Shown here: positions 48,863 through 60,128 of the stretch, piece by piece
Layout: each line of letters opens with the position of its first letter
Position numbering within the stretch: the stretch's first letter is position 1
Source: Acidimicrobiales bacterium
Lineage (GTDB): Bacteria > Actinomycetota > Acidimicrobiia > Acidimicrobiales > JAHWLA01
Length of the DNA stretch: 64,000 nt
Reading direction: 5' to 3'
NCBI GenBank assembly: GCA_035536915.1
Contig: DATLNE010000031.1
Coordinates: 62,001 to 126,000 of the forward strand
The notes under the pieces: model-generated
What the model was told of the DNA's origin: nothing
The model's database searches: none
The model's input: only the letters and a program-made list of their open reading frames with translations
Made by a program: the position numbers and the translations under genes

Positions 48863-49435
48863 CTAGGGGCGTCGACCCGCCAGGTCGAGCAGCTTGGCCT
48901 GGAGGGGCGCGTCGTCGGGCACGGTGCCGCTGCGACCCTTGCCGAAGATGCCGCCTGTGGCCAGGTCGTCGGCCATCGGTTCCATGCCGCCGTAGAGCAG
49001 TTCCACGACCTCGGCATCGAGTTGCTCGCCGGCGCCGATGGCGCGGGCCAGGTCCCATGCGTGCAGCGCCTGGTCGGCGATGCGGAAGCCGAAGAGCTGG
49101 AAGCCGGGGATAGGGCCTGCGGTGGGGTGGGCGCACGTGCGCTCGAGGGCGCCGTCTTCGGCGAAGGCCGCCCGTTGTGCGGCCACGCTGTCGAGGAACG
49201 AGGCCAAAGGGTTGTCGCCGAGGAAGTCGCTGCCCCACGCGGCCACGACCTCTTCGGACGTGGCCCCGTGCAGGAGGGCGACCGACATGCGGTTGGCCCC
49301 GACCACGTGGTTGACGAGGGCGCGCACCGACCACTGCTCACACGGCGTCGGCGCCTCCCACTGGTCGGCCCGCACCGCCCGCAGGCGCCGTTCGAAGTCC
49401 GCCGCCGACCGGTCGAGAGCCTCGAAGAAGTCCAT
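48863..49435 (-). CDS. DinB-fold TIGR03086-family metal-binding protein
   Basis: 190 residues from ATG 49435. The segment APTPCEQWSVRALVNHVVG with H43, and later ADQALHAWDLA, are typical of the actinobacterial TIGR03086/mycothiol-dependent enzyme superfamily. Members bind a metal through three His and may act on thiol adducts. It is convergent with the MEDS-ATPase gene (2 bases apart). The specific reaction is unknown. Confidence 0.87.
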   Translation of the reverse strand: MDFFEALDRSAADFERRLRAVRADQWEAPTPCEQWSVRALVNHVVGANRMSVALLHGATSEEVVAAWGSDFLGDNPLASFLDSVAAQRAAFAEDGALERTCAHPTAGPIPGFQLFGFRIADQALHAWDLARAIGAGEQLDAEVVELLYGGMEPMADDLATGGIFGKGRSGTVPDDAPLQAKLLDLAGRRP

Positions 49436-54260: not shown

Positions 54261-55067
54261 ATGCAGGTCGACGACGGGCGTCACGCTTGCTGCTACTACG
54301 ACGACGACGCTCAGCGCGACGTCGTCGTGGGGCAGTTCCTGGCCGACGGCGTGGCTCGGCATCAGCGGCTGCTGTACCTCTCCGACGGCACGGCGCCCGA
54401 GGTCGTGGCCCGCCTGCTCGACGCCCGTGGCATCGACAGCGCCGCCTTGCTGCGCTCCGGTGGCTTGGCCGTGGAGCCGGCTGCGACCGCGTACCTGGCG
54501 GGGGGCACCTTCGACCCCGACGACGTCAAGGACCTGGTGCGCGTACGGGTGCACGACGCCTTGGCTGCGGGCTACGCCGGCTTGCGGGTCACCGCCGAGA
54601 TGGGTTGGGCGACCCGCGGCGCGCCCGGCACCGAGCGCTTGGACGAGTACGAGCGCGACGTCAACGCGCTGTTCGACGAAGGCTCCCTGGTCGGCTTGTG
54701 CCAGTACGACCGTCGTGTCTTCGACAGCGCCGCGGTGGCGCTGGCGTGTCATCACGAGGTGTGCGGCTCGGCGGGCTTCGTCGCCAGTCGGCGCAACGGC
54801 ACCATGCGCGTGGCGGGCGAGGTCGACTTCAACGACAGCGACGTCCTGGCCGCCTGCATCGCCGCCGGCGACCTCGACGTCGACCTGGCCGACGTCGCCT
54901 TCGTCGACATCGCAGCCGTGCGCGCCCTCGTATCGGCGGCGCGCCGCCTGCCCGCCGGTGCCGCCCTGGTGCTGCGCAACGTGCCGCCCGTGGTCGAGCG
55001 GCTGTTGGCCCTCACCGGCTGGGGCGCCACCCCGCAGCTTCGGGCAGAGGTTCGACTCGCCCGCTGA
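54261..55067 (+). CDS. MEDS-STAS-like protein
   Basis: 268 residues from ATG 54261 (GTG 54252 possible). The MEDS domain reads HACCYYDDDAQRDVVVGQFL, LRVTAEMGWA and GLCQYDRRVF. The C-terminal ~85 residues (GTMRVAGEVDFNDSDVLAAC, VDLADVAFVDIAAVRAL) are STAS-like without the usual Ser. It is a paralogue of the protein at 47080-47907, here without an ATPase partner. Its 3' end overlaps the convergent fumarylacetoacetase gene by 56 bases. Confidence 0.82.
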   Translation: MQVDDGRHACCYYDDDAQRDVVVGQFLADGVARHQRLLYLSDGTAPEVVARLLDARGIDSAALLRSGGLAVEPAATAYLAGGTFDPDDVKDLVRVRVHDALAAGYAGLRVTAEMGWATRGAPGTERLDEYERDVNALFDEGSLVGLCQYDRRVFDSAAVALACHHEVCGSAGFVASRRNGTMRVAGEVDFNDSDVLAACIAAGDLDVDLADVAFVDIAAVRALVSAARRLPAGAALVLRNVPPVVERLLALTGWGATPQLRAEVRLAR

Positions 55068-56112
55068 CCTCGCCGATCGAGGAGCGGATGGTGGCCACGT
55101 CGCCGTCCTGGAGGAACGTGCGGGTGGAGCCGTCGTCGAGCGTCAGCGGCCGCTCGCCCCGCCACGTCAGTTCGATGAGGCTGCCGAACGAGTCGGGCTC
55201 CCAGCCCGAGATGGTGCCGCTGGCGTAGAGGTCGCCGGTGCGCATGGCGGCGCCGTTGACGGTGGCATTGGCGACCAGCTGGGCTGGGCCCCACGTCAGC
55301 TCGCGGGCGTTGGTGCGAGAGACCACGGTGCCGTTGAGCTCCAGGGCGAGGTCGAGGTCGGGCACCCGCGGGCCGTCGACGCGCAGGTAGGGGTCGACGT
55401 CCTGGGGCGGCCCCTCTACCAAGGGGACTGCTGCGGCGGGGGTGACCCACGCCGAGACCGACGTGGCGAACGACTTGCCCAGGTGCGGCCCGAGCGGCTG
55501 GTACTCGAACGACTGGATGTCGCGGGCCGACCAGTCGTTCACGACGACGAAGCCGAAGATGTGGTCCCAGGCCTGCTCTGTGGGAACCGGGTGCCCGCGT
55601 TCGGAGCCCACACCCACGATCACCCCCAGTTCGACCTCGACGTCGAGCATGGCGGTGGGCCGCAGCGTCGGGCGTTCGTCGCCCGGTCGTACCGTTAGTC
55701 CCTGTGGGCGGTAGACAGGCTCGCCGCTGACGACCAGGGTGGCAGCCCGGCCGTGGTAGCCGACCGGCAGGTGGCGCCAGTTGGGGAGCAGCGGCTCGCT
55801 GTCGGGCCGGAACATGCGACCCAGGTTGGTGGCGTGCGACTCCGAGGCGTAGAAGTCGACGTAGTCGGCGGGCCGCCACGGGAGCACGAGTGTCACTTCG
55901 GCCAGCGGCGTCAGCAGTTCCTCGCGTGGCTCCATGTCGGCCAGGCGGTTGTAGGCCTCCCGCCACGCCGTGGGGCCTGCGGCCATGAAGGCGTTGAGGG
56001 CGGGCTCGGCGAACACGGGGTCGTCGAGCGCTCGGGCCAGGTCGACCACGTGGTCGCCGACGCGCCCGACGCAACCTGTTGTGCGGGTGACCCCGTAGGA
56101 GCTAACCCGCAT
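55012..56112 (-). CDS. fahA: Fumarylacetoacetase
   Basis: 366 residues from an ATG at 56112 that overlaps the aminotransferase-DinB stop by 11 bases. Catalytic-core segments are YVDFYASESHATNLGRMF, LPVGYHGRAATL, DVEVELGVIVG and FGFVVVNDWSARDIQ, with acidic metal ligands. It splits fumarylacetoacetate into fumarate and acetoacetate, the last step of tyrosine breakdown. It is the last gene of the hpd operon. Confidence 0.94.
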   Translation of the reverse strand: MRVSSYGVTRTTGCVGRVGDHVVDLARALDDPVFAEPALNAFMAAGPTAWREAYNRLADMEPREELLTPLAEVTLVLPWRPADYVDFYASESHATNLGRMFRPDSEPLLPNWRHLPVGYHGRAATLVVSGEPVYRPQGLTVRPGDERPTLRPTAMLDVEVELGVIVGVGSERGHPVPTEQAWDHIFGFVVVNDWSARDIQSFEYQPLGPHLGKSFATSVSAWVTPAAAVPLVEGPPQDVDPYLRVDGPRVPDLDLALELNGTVVSRTNARELTWGPAQLVANATVNGAAMRTGDLYASGTISGWEPDSFGSLIELTWRGERPLTLDDGSTRTFLQDGDVATIRSSIGEVSGRVEPLPEAAGWRPSR

Positions 56113-57583
56113 CGAGCTTCTCCAACTGGTCGGCGTGCTCTTCGTAGTGGCCGACGAGGAACTCGTCGAGGATGCGGGGCACGTCCATGGCGCCCAGCTT
56201 CGAGTGCACGCCGTGGCGCCGCCAGTCCTCGGGCGACAACGACGACACCACGTGGGCCAAGCGGTCGAGCGCGCGCATGGCCGCCGTCAGGTGCGCCCGC
56301 CGCTCGTCGTGTCGGTGCCCGTCGATCCATCGCACCCGCGCTGGGTCGGACTTCACCCGGCCGAACGGCGCCCCGTCGGACGCCAGCACCTTGTCGAGCT
56401 CGACCAACCAGTAGCGGCCGAACTCGCCGATGTGCGCCCACGCCTGCCCCTCGTCCCACCGTTCGGTGCCGCCTGGGTCGGGATCGGTCAGCCCCCGCCG
56501 GGGAGTGTCGGCCAAGCGCGGCAAGCGCGCCCGCACGCCGTCGATGCGGTCGAGCACGGCCGCCACCCGGGAGGCGTGCGTGGGGTCGTCGGCCGGCGGC
56601 AAGCCGGCCAGGAAGCGGTCGTTCTCCTCGGGCGTGCCGATGGTGACGCGCATGCCTTCCGGGAACGGGCGGGTCACCACGCCGGGCACGTCCACAGTGG
56701 GCATCCACACGAAGTTGGCCTGCGAGTCGGGCGTGGCGTAGCCCAGCTCGAACAGCGCCCGCCGCACCCGAGTGCGTTCGGCCACCACGGCGGCCACCCG
56801 CTCGTGCAGCTCGTCGTCGGCCGCGAGCGAGGCCAGGGCGGCGGCCTGCGCCACGGCGTTGACGGCGAAGGGGATCAGCACCTTGTCGACCACGGCCACC
56901 ACTTCGGGGTCGGCAACCATGTAGCCGATGCGCAGTCCGGCCAGTCCGTAGGCCTTGGAGAAGGTGCGCAGGACGACGACGTTGGGATGTGCCTTCACCC
57001 GGGCGAGGCCGTCGACGACGTCGTCGCGGGTGACGAACTCGCGGTAGGCCTCGTCGAGCACGACCAGGCACGTGGGCGGCACGTCGCCCAGGAAGGCGGT
57101 GAGCCCGCTGTCGTCGAGCGCCGTGCCGGTCGGGTTGTTGGGGTTGGCCAGCAGCACCAGCTTGGTCCGCTCGGTGATGCGCAGCGCACCGACGTCGATG
57201 GTGTCTCGCACCAGCGGCGCGGTCACCGCCTCGGCCCCGGCGATCGTCGTCATGATCGGGTACGCCTCGAACGACCGCCACCCGAAGGCGACCTCGTCAC
57301 CGGGGCCGGCGTAGGCCAGGCACAGCTGTTGCAGCAGACCCACGCTGCCGCACCCCACCGCAATGCACTCCGCCGGCACGTGCAGCCGCGCCGCCACTGC
57401 TTCGCGCACGGCGGTGGCGTGGTGGTCGGGGTACCGGTTGATGCGGGCGCCGGCGTCGGCCAGGGCGGCTCGCACCGACGGCAGCGGGTCGAAGGGCTGC
57501 TCGTTCGACGAGAGCTTGGCCGAGCCCTCGACGCTCCGGCCGGGCCGGTACGAGGGGAGGTCGGCGATGGCGGGGCGAGGCAT
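56102..57583 (-). CDS. HisC-like aminotransferase fused to a C-terminal DinB-like domain
   Basis: 493 residues. Residues 1-~330 are a class I/II aminotransferase of the HisC/aromatic type: KLSSNEQPFDPLPS, LANPNNPTG, VLDEAYREF and the PLP-binding Lys 210 in RTFSKAYGLAGLRIGY. HisC proteins end near residue 350. Here ~160 more residues follow, with WDEGQAWAHIGEFGRYW (H384), HRHDERRAHL (H423, H425, H431) and VGHYEEHADQL (H479, H483), a DinB-like helix bundle with possible three-His metal site. In this operon the first part probably converts tyrosine or phenylalanine to the keto acid. The role of the second part is open. Confidence 0.85.
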   Translation of the reverse strand: MPRPAIADLPSYRPGRSVEGSAKLSSNEQPFDPLPSVRAALADAGARINRYPDHHATAVREAVAARLHVPAECIAVGCGSVGLLQQLCLAYAGPGDEVAFGWRSFEAYPIMTTIAGAEAVTAPLVRDTIDVGALRITERTKLVLLANPNNPTGTALDDSGLTAFLGDVPPTCLVVLDEAYREFVTRDDVVDGLARVKAHPNVVVLRTFSKAYGLAGLRIGYMVADPEVVAVVDKVLIPFAVNAVAQAAALASLAADDELHERVAAVVAERTRVRRALFELGYATPDSQANFVWMPTVDVPGVVTRPFPEGMRVTIGTPEENDRFLAGLPPADDPTHASRVAAVLDRIDGVRARLPRLADTPRRGLTDPDPGGTERWDEGQAWAHIGEFGRYWLVELDKVLASDGAPFGRVKSDPARVRWIDGHRHDERRAHLTAAMRALDRLAHVVSSLSPEDWRRHGVHSKLGAMDVPRILDEFLVGHYEEHADQLEKLDAG

Positions 57584-57587
57584 GGCC

Positions 57588-58700
57588 TCAGAGATTGCCG
57601 CGGCGCTCCTGCTCGCGCTCGATGGCTTCGAACAAGGCCTTGAAGTTGCCCTCGCCGAAGCCGCCGGCGCCTTCGCGCTGGATGACCTCGAAGAACAACG
57701 TGGGCCGGTCGCCGAACGTCTCGGTGAAGACCTGGAGCAGGTAGCCGCCCGACTCGCGGTCGACGAGGATGCCGAGGCGCGACAGGTCGTGCCACGGGAG
57801 GTCGATGCCGTCGAGGCGGCGGCGGGCGTCCTCGTAGTAGCTGGGCGGGGGAGTGAGGAAGCGCACGCCCCGGTCGCGCAACGACGCCACCGAGCCCACG
57901 ATGTCGTCGGTGGCCATGGCGATGTGCTGCACGCCGGGGCCGCCGTAGGCGTCGAGGTACTCCTGAATCTGGCTCTTGCGCCGGCCCTCGGCAGGCTCGT
58001 TGATGGGCATGACGATGCGGCCGCCGTTGTGTACCACGGTCGAGCGCAAGGCCGAGTACTCCGTCGAGATCTGGTCGCGATCGAAGTGCGTCATCTGCCG
58101 GAACCCGAAGGTGTCCTCGTAGAAGCGCACCCACCCCTCCAGCACGCCCTCTTCCACGTTGCCGACGATGTGGTCGATGGTGCGCAGCCGCGCCGGGTCG
58201 CCGATGCGGGGCTCGAACAGCCGCTCGGTGGTGAAGCCGGGGCCGAAGCCGTCGTAGGCGCTTCGGTCGACGAAGGCGTGCACGGTGTCGCCGTAAGTGG
58301 CGACCTCGGCGGTGACCACGATGCCGCCGTCGCCCCGGTGCTCGTGCGGCGGCGTGACCGGCTCGGCGCCCCGCTCGACGGCGGCCCGGAAGGCGTGCTC
58401 CACGTCGGGCACCTCGAAGCACAGGCGCTTCACGCCGTCGCCGTGGGTGCGCACGTGGGCCATGACCTCGGAGTCGGGCGTGAGGCCGGCGGTGACGACG
58501 AAACGGATGTCGCCCTGCTGGAGGAGCCAGCTGGTGCGGTCGCGCACGCCGGTCTCGGGGCCTGCGTAGCCGACGACGTCGAAGCCGAAGCCGGTGGCCA
58601 ACCAGTGGGCGGAGGCTCGGGCGTTGCCCACCCACATCTCGACGGCGTCCCATCCCGTCAGCAACTCTGCGGGGGCGACAGTCGCAGCGGTGAGCGTCAT
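57588..58700 (-). CDS. hpd: 4-Hydroxyphenylpyruvate dioxygenase
   Basis: 370 residues. Two vicinal-oxygen-chelate halves are seen. Iron ligands lie in IDHIVGNVEEG, in GVQHIAMATDDIV and as a Glu near FFEVIQREGAGGFGEGNFKALF, the family ending. It turns 4-hydroxyphenylpyruvate into homogentisate with O2. It is the first gene of the minus-strand operon, 4 bases ahead of the aminotransferase-DinB gene. It is divergent from phenylalanine hydroxylase (118 bases). Confidence 0.96.
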   Translation of the reverse strand: MTLTAATVAPAELLTGWDAVEMWVGNARASAHWLATGFGFDVVGYAGPETGVRDRTSWLLQQGDIRFVVTAGLTPDSEVMAHVRTHGDGVKRLCFEVPDVEHAFRAAVERGAEPVTPPHEHRGDGGIVVTAEVATYGDTVHAFVDRSAYDGFGPGFTTERLFEPRIGDPARLRTIDHIVGNVEEGVLEGWVRFYEDTFGFRQMTHFDRDQISTEYSALRSTVVHNGGRIVMPINEPAEGRRKSQIQEYLDAYGGPGVQHIAMATDDIVGSVASLRDRGVRFLTPPPSYYEDARRRLDGIDLPWHDLSRLGILVDRESGGYLLQVFTETFGDRPTLFFEVIQREGAGGFGEGNFKALFEAIEREQERRGNL

Positions 58701-58818: not shown

Positions 58819-59691
58819 ATGGCCTACTCGCCGGTGACGGCGCTCGACGGAGCAGTGCGGGTCGAGCTCAGCGAGGACCACCCCGGCTTTGCCGATCCGG
58901 CCTATCGGCGCCGGCGCGACGACCTGGCGGCGTTGGCCCTCGACTACCAGCCCGGCGACCCCATCCCCACGCCGACCTACACCGAGACGGAGCACGAGGT
59001 GTGGCGCATCGTCAGCCGGGAGCTGGCGGTCAAGCACCGGGAGTACGCCAACCGGGAGTTCCTGGAGGCGGTCGAGGCGCTGGCCTTGCCCCGAGACCGC
59101 ATTCCCCAGTTGCACGAGGTGACCGAGCGGCTGGCGCCGCTCACCGGGTGGAAGTACCTGCCCGTGGCCGGGTTGGCCCCGCTGTGCGACTTCTACGGCT
59201 CGTTCGCCGACGGCACCTTCCACTCCACGCAGTACATCCGCCACCACTCGGTCCCGCTCTACACGCCCGAGCCCGACATCGTGCACGAGGTGCTGGGCCA
59301 CGCCAACCAGTTGGCCCACCCTGAGTTCGCGGCGTTGTGTCGGGTGGTGGGGCAGGTGGTGCGGCGGCTGGAGACGCCCGAGGCGCTGCTGTTCCTGTCG
59401 AAGGTGTTCTGGTTCACCTTCGAGTTCGGCGTGGCGTGGGAGGGGAGCGAGCTGCGGACGTACGGGGCGGGGGTCCTGTCGTCGTACGGCGAGCTCGACA
59501 ACTTCCGCAAGGCCGAGATCCGGCCCCTCGACTGGGGCGCCATGGGGACACTCGACTACGACATCACCCACTACCAGCCGGTGCTGTTCGCGGCGCCGTC
59601 GATCCCGGCGTTGGTGGAGGAGCTGCGGGGGTTCCTCGAAGGCTTCGACGACGAGACGGCGTTGCGGTGGACGACCTCGACCGCCGCCTGA
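58819..59691 (+). CDS. phhA: Phenylalanine 4-monooxygenase
   Basis: 290 residues. The iron site is HEVLGH (His 156 and 161) in VPLYTPEPDIVHEVLGHANQ, with the Glu in FWFTFEFGVAWEG. It is the single-domain bacterial form without a regulatory ACT domain. It makes tyrosine from phenylalanine with a pterin cofactor and O2. The Lrp regulator gene overlaps its 3' end by 25 bases. No pterin carbinolamine dehydratase is in the window. Confidence 0.95.
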   Translation: MAYSPVTALDGAVRVELSEDHPGFADPAYRRRRDDLAALALDYQPGDPIPTPTYTETEHEVWRIVSRELAVKHREYANREFLEAVEALALPRDRIPQLHEVTERLAPLTGWKYLPVAGLAPLCDFYGSFADGTFHSTQYIRHHSVPLYTPEPDIVHEVLGHANQLAHPEFAALCRVVGQVVRRLETPEALLFLSKVFWFTFEFGVAWEGSELRTYGAGVLSSYGELDNFRKAEIRPLDWGAMGTLDYDITHYQPVLFAAPSIPALVEELRGFLEGFDDETALRWTTSTAA

Positions 59692-60128
59692 TCGCCACGC
59701 TGGCGGCGCAGCCCCGGGCGGGGGTGCTCACGCTGGCGCGGATGATGGGCGTGAACCGCAACACCGTGCAAGCCCGGCTCGACAAGCTGGTGGCCCGGGG
59801 GATCATCACCGGCTTCGGGCCCGACGTGTCGCTCAAGGCGGTCGGCTACGACGTGCTGGCCTTTGTCACGCTGGAGATCGCCCAAGGCCGTACGCCCGAC
59901 GTGCTCGACCACCTGCGCGACATCCCCGAGGTGGTCGAGGCCCACATGGTCACGGGCATGGGCGACCTGTTCTTGCGGGTGGTGGCCCGGTCGAACGAAG
60001 ACCTGGCCCGGGTGATCAACCGCATCCTGGAGATCGCCGGCATCAACCGCACGACGACGCTGCTGGCCCTGTCGACCCCCATCCCCACCCGCACGCTCCC
60101 CGCCATCCAAGCCACCGCCGACCCCTGA
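59667..60128 (+). CDS. Lrp/AsnC-family regulator
   Basis: 153 residues from GTG 59667, inside the phenylalanine hydroxylase 3' end. The N-terminal helix-turn-helix is LIATLAAQPRAGVLTLARMM and GVNRNTVQARLDKL; the C-terminal RAM domain (AFVTLEIAQGR, EAHMVTGMGDLFLRVVA) binds amino acids. It likely controls the phenylalanine/tyrosine genes on both sides. Confidence 0.93.
   Translation: MDDLDRRLIATLAAQPRAGVLTLARMMGVNRNTVQARLDKLVARGIITGFGPDVSLKAVGYDVLAFVTLEIAQGRTPDVLDHLRDIPEVVEAHMVTGMGDLFLRVVARSNEDLARVINRILEIAGINRTTTLLALSTPIPTRTLPAIQATADP

Follow-up and report, generated by a model that had tools for sequence, protein, structure and literature searches.

A gene in the tyrosine degradation operon of an Acidimicrobiales bacterium encodes an aminotransferase with a DinB-fold tail, and we consider it likely that the product is a two-domain tyrosine-degradation enzyme whose tail is a maleylacetoacetate isomerase, probably dependent on mycothiol in this organism. 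The preliminary description of the window (the whole stretch of DNA analysed, 64,000 nucleotides) had proposed that the tail may supply the isomerase missing from the pathway. This proposal is supported by the fold of the tail, a histidine triad, the position in the operon, and the absence of the glutathione-dependent isomerase MaiA; catalysis and the use of mycothiol are what we infer from these features. Across genomes, genes for the candidate isomerase (EC 5.2.1.2) are linked to hmgA, hpd, and fahA.

Fusion gene, operon, and aminotransferase head

The fusion is read from the window as a single open frame of 493 codons on the minus strand (56102..57583), with its ATG at 57583 and its stop at 56102-56104. 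It starts after a 4-base gap from the end of the upstream gene hpd (4-hydroxyphenylpyruvate dioxygenase; 57588..58700, minus strand), which scores 414 bits on TIGR01263, above the cut-off. At its 3' end it overlaps by 11 bases with fahA (fumarylacetoacetate hydrolase; 55012..56112, minus strand), which matches FAA_hydrolase (1.4e-37) and scores 338 bits on TIGR01266 (fumarylacetoacetase), slightly below the cut-off of 375. The order hpd, fusion, fahA in the preliminary description is borne out, and we add the strand (minus), which it had not given. Upstream of hpd and transcribed divergently are genes for a phenylalanine 4-monooxygenase (phenylalanine hydroxylase; 58819..59691, plus strand; 287 bits on NF008877, above the cut-off) and for an Lrp/AsnC-type regulator (59691..60128, plus strand; AsnC_trans_reg, 5.5e-19). 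Relatives of the latter also occur near other hpd operons, and it is the probable regulator of the operon described here.

The head (about residues 1-333; 56585..57583, minus strand) is a Pat/HisC-like aminotransferase, matching Aminotran_1_2 at 1.4e-48 and the Pat/HisC-like NCBIfam model NF002878 at 443 bits (cut-off 374). Its best solved relative is 4r2n, a "putative phenylalanine aminotransferase" (E = 2.6e-91), which consists of the same domain in 367 residues and lacks a DinB tail. The motifs NPNNPTG (at residue 147) and SKAYGLAG (209-216), which contains the PLP lysine, are intact. In the head, the window copy lacks short stretches of ~10-13 residues that its fused relatives have, near the N terminus and before RVTIG (57450-57545 and 56630-56720, minus strand), and to judge from this comparison the activity of the head may be altered. 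A model of the full-length fusion has a mean pLDDT of 77, with the head poor in parts. Since the same head-tail fusion recurs in three further genomes, among them that of the isolate Desertimonas flava, it is not an accident of assembly.

Fold and predicted metal site of the tail

The tail (about residues 334-493; 56105..56584, minus strand) is a candidate maleylacetoacetate isomerase on the basis of AlphaFold and Foldseek results and of genomic context. It scores 17.9 bits on Pfam DinB_2 (E = 0.0043), below the gathering cut-off of 24.8, and has no meaningful NCBIfam match, so automatic annotation would overlook it. DinB_2 is nevertheless matched by 25 of 28 aligned family members (best 3.1e-10), and several close relatives (L023, L067, L068, and L080 among them) lie above its gathering cut-off. 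MDMPI_N is matched weakly by 16 of the 28, but not by the window copy, which ends at the DinB bundle and has no MDMPI-specific C-terminal domain.

The preliminary description had asked for a structure prediction compared with mycothiol-dependent maleylpyruvate isomerase. The AlphaFold model of the tail, built from the 28-sequence alignment, is a confident DinB four-helix bundle (mean pLDDT 96.2), and that isomerase is indeed among its structural neighbours. In Foldseek comparisons with the PDB, the model matches YfiT (1rxq; TM 0.74, probability 1.00), the mycothiol-dependent maleylpyruvate isomerase (2nsf/2nsg; TM 0.67, probability 1.00), and 8f5v (TM 0.61), the mycothiol S-transferase of M. 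tuberculosis with mycothiol and zinc. The sequence profile of the tail reaches 2rd9 (3e-6) and 1rxq (0.007), and some of its relatives match the YfiT or MST models weakly. In a profile comparison with another MDMPI-like protein of the window, the tail gave no match.

The metal triad of DinB proteins usually draws its first residue from helix 2 and the other two, spaced by four, from helix 4. The predicted triad of the tail has this layout, with H384 (codon 56432..56434, minus strand) in helix 2 of the model and H479 (56147..56149, minus strand) and H483 (56135..56137, minus strand), four residues apart, in helix 4. These are the residues, at the same positions, that the preliminary description had singled out as possible metal ligands; it had held that a model lacking a metal site would count against its proposal, and we find that all 39 family members compared keep the predicted triad. 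By fold topology the three histidines would correspond to the metal site of 2nsf. Also invariant in all 39 are R409 of the PFGR motif (56357..56359, minus strand), a putative anion-binding residue, and E374, W376, W392, G408, H460, G464, E481, Q486, and L487.

Relatives of the tail and the missing isomerase

A scan of species-representative genomes with a profile of five tails, made without regard to context, yielded 42 loci in Actinomycetota, Chloroflexota, and Dormibacterota, together with single bins labelled Steroidobacteraceae and Bacillota. Most of these relatives are stand-alone proteins. Context was counted over 44 loci (the 42 plus G004 and G018), many of them on short contigs. A gene for an FAH-family hydrolase lies within 1 kb in 35 of the 44, mostly 0-140 bases away; hmgA is present in 26, hpd in 11, and either of the two (within 8 kb) in 27. 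Among 15 more distant DinB genes used as a control, one has an FAH neighbour and none has hmgA or hpd. The differences (P = 7e-7 for FAH and 1.5e-5 for hmgA or hpd, Fisher's test) are indicative only, because the controls are few, a part of them comes from a single family, and related loci do not count as independent observations. In a sample of 397 genomes of the order, 65 carry hmgA; the five that have a close DinB copy are all among them (P = 1e-4).

The arrangement of these loci varies. Stand-alone relatives, for which the preliminary description had suggested a search, occupy the same operon position as the fusion, for example in G004, where the order is pah-hpd-DinB-fahA-hmgA. Desertimonas flava (Acidimicrobiia) and L067 have hpd-[aminotransferase-DinB fusion]-fahA-hmgA, and G037 has the fusion followed by fahA. 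In Chloroflexota, an FAH-DinB pair is followed by hmgA (L071, L072, and L075); three loci that are from Dormibacterota or labelled Chloroflexi (L088, L099, and L105) have hpd-hmgA-aminotransferase-FAH-DinB. Four FAH-DinB pairs (L069, L076, L086, and L101) have no hmgA or hpd in their flanks, and since some relatives thus adjoin only an FAH-family gene, with no hmgA seen, the substrate may vary.

Phylogenetically, the tail of the window protein falls into one clade with the remaining fused copies and the stand-alone copy of G004 (support 99/94). Such a topology fits either a single fusion in Actinomycetota, later split again, or a fusion that postdates the divergence of G004. DinB domains of the tail family are also fused in frame to a PALP enzyme (threonine dehydratase/serine racemase-like) in three Chloroflexota-type loci (L080:7992-9422, L084:324-1769, and L089:8001-9449). 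These separate, independent fusions indicate that the DinB domain is a self-contained unit, joined to other enzymes on more than one occasion. The joining of head and tail could serve co-expression only.

One family of the order (f32) holds two further DinB subfamilies that have the same histidine triad (L055-L062). We rejected these genes as encoding the same enzyme: they form distant branches and are not near hmgA or fahA. In the window itself, a second DinB-type protein (48863-49433, minus strand; MDMPI_N, 48 bits) lies ~6 kb beyond fahA; it is a possible alternative isomerase, and no link to the pathway was seen.

Where the cis-trans isomerase of tyrosine degradation has been described, it is a glutathione transferase. 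The preliminary description had noted that no maleylacetoacetate isomerase is seen in the window, and there is none to be found in the rest of the genome either: MaiA (TIGR01262) has no match at E ≤ 1 in the whole genome, which is 99.5% complete. The same description had named a separate isomerase encoded with hmgA elsewhere in the genome as an observation that would speak against the tail. The genome does have a divergent hmgA (L022:944-2119, on contig C24; HgmA_N above the cut-off), with neighbours that resemble NADH dehydrogenase subunits and unrelated genes; no DinB gene was found there, and an isomerase adjoining hmgA was rejected. The hmgA group to which it belongs scores 42 bits on TIGR01015, against a cut-off of 511, so standard annotation may miss hmgA of this type. 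Relatives of this type of hmgA sit in complete pah-hpd-fahA operons.

MaiA is likewise below the cut-off or absent in all 46 DinB-bearing genomes (a number in which G037/G405 and G049/G427 are counted twice) and in 60 further genomes of the order that have hmgA, nearly all of which also lack a close copy of the tail-type DinB. We rejected the idea that the missing enzyme is MaiA or some other glutathione transferase, none of which scores above the cut-off in this genome, the carriers, or the hmgA-bearing relatives. The 60 genomes also weaken the argument from a missing isomerase, since they show that the step can apparently proceed without a tail-type DinB, or by means of another enzyme. Six of the MaiA-less genomes (G007, G041, G058, G078, G103, and G211) have compact hpd-fahA-hmgA operons, most of them with pah, that hold no isomerase candidate (L150, L151, L158, L156, L157, and L154, respectively), and no substitute gene common to the DinB-less hmgA operons was found among those sampled. 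Thiol-driven isomerisation of maleylacetoacetate can be spontaneous, and the DinB-less genomes may use this or an unlinked enzyme. Because the absence of MaiA is not specific to carriers, the case for the tail as isomerase rests on adjacency and fold and not on absence.

Other roles for the domain can be set against the same observations. The nearest solved folds include YfiT and mycothiol S-transferase, thiol transferases of the DinB superfamily whose models are weakly matched by some relatives, and the pathway intermediates are electrophiles; the tail might thus conjugate a thiol to reactive maleyl- or fumarylacetoacetate, or to homogentisate quinones, as a detoxifying S-transferase, and not be the pathway isomerase. 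We regard this as unlikely, given that at most loci the DinB gene directly adjoins that of the FAH hydrolase, which mirrors an isomerase-hydrolase pair, that MaiA is absent, and that fusion to the first enzyme of the pathway is not what a clean-up role would lead one to expect. The four FAH-DinB pairs without hmgA or hpd raise the thought that the domain at such loci isomerises a related substrate (of the maleylpyruvate type, for example) and that the copy in the tyrosine operon is a recruited paralogue of loose specificity. With hmgA or hpd at 27 of the 44 loci, spread over three phyla, and with many of the hmgA-less contigs short, this appears improbable.

The fusion, seen both in the window and in relatives, would also suit a tail that is non-catalytic and stabilises, dimerises, or regulates the aminotransferase. 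Stand-alone versions in the same operon position, the unrelated PALP-family fusions in Chloroflexota-type loci, and the invariance of all the catalytic-type residues argue against such a role, to which we give very little credence.

Proposed reaction, cofactor, and significance

For the isomerase that we favour, we propose the following scheme. The head would convert tyrosine to 4-hydroxyphenylpyruvate, or phenylalanine to phenylpyruvate, by transamination, and HmgA, encoded elsewhere in the genome, would cleave the ring to give maleylacetoacetate, which the tail would convert to fumarylacetoacetate, the substrate of FahA. H384, H479, and H483 would coordinate a divalent metal, which in turn would bind and activate a thiol of low molecular weight, probably mycothiol here, while R409 and neighbouring residues would hold the dicarboxylate. 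Reversible addition of the thiol to the cis double bond would permit rotation, and elimination would give the trans isomer. This mechanism is modelled on the Corynebacterium gentisate pathway, and the metal, thiol, substrate, and catalysis assigned to the tail are all predictions. In C. glutamicum, NCgl2918 isomerises maleylpyruvate using mycothiol (PMC4360819).

The tail shares the DinB four-helix bundle with that enzyme (2nsf/2nsg; MDMPI_N). The maleylpyruvate isomerase, however, has 240 residues with an extra C-terminal part that the tail lacks, its sequence identity to the tail is near 12%, and it belongs to the gentisate pathway, whereas the tail is linked to homogentisate genes and fused to an aminotransferase. 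Maleylpyruvate isomerase takes the product of a ring-cleaving dioxygenase and passes its own on to an FAH-family hydrolase; the homogentisate route here can be read as the same series of dioxygenase, DinB isomerase, and FAH hydrolase. The zeta-class glutathione transferase MaiA/HmgC (TIGR01262) has the reaction and pathway position proposed for the tail, but is glutathione-dependent and unrelated to it in fold and sequence. The bacillithiol transferases YfiT/BstA and the mycothiol S-transferase (1rxq and 8f5v) share the fold and the His-rich metal site predicted in the tail, but carry out general conjugation of electrophiles and resemble it weakly in sequence.

Actinomycetota have mycothiol in place of glutathione. 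The genome under study encodes an MshA-like protein of 435 bits (curated cut-off 462). It also encodes an MshC-like protein, with 415 bits as MshC, below the cut-off, against 354 as CysS; an ordinary CysS is present separately. Mycothiol is probably the cofactor in this organism. Of the other Actinomycetota tested, all but G004 give a comparable MshA match, as do the tested genomes of Dormibacterota type. MshA at E ≤ 1e-60 is absent in eight out of eight non-actinobacterial, Chloroflexota-type carriers, two MshC-like matches in such carriers look like CysS, and no BshC was found in 24 genomes, which rules against bacillithiol as the cofactor in Chloroflexota; these absences are provisional because the bins are incomplete. 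Given that neither MshA nor BshC was seen in the Chloroflexota carriers, mycothiol probably does not serve as cofactor throughout the family. More tentatively, and with considerable doubt, we suggest that in Acidimicrobiia, Dormibacterota, and Chloroflexota the place of MaiA is taken by an as yet unnamed DinB-fold family of maleylacetoacetate isomerases, whose members in Chloroflexota use another thiol or the metal alone in place of mycothiol or bacillithiol.

We know of no enzyme for the isomerisation of maleylacetoacetate in bacteria without glutathione. A literature search of partial coverage returned no paper that joins DinB with homogentisate and none that names a DinB-like maleylacetoacetate isomerase. 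The prediction is directly testable with the protein of the isolate Desertimonas flava. If it is true, a DinB-fold replacement fills the isomerase gap in three phyla and an unannotated DinB family gains a function; the DinB fold would then have taken the same role in two sister pathways, those of gentisate and homogentisate.
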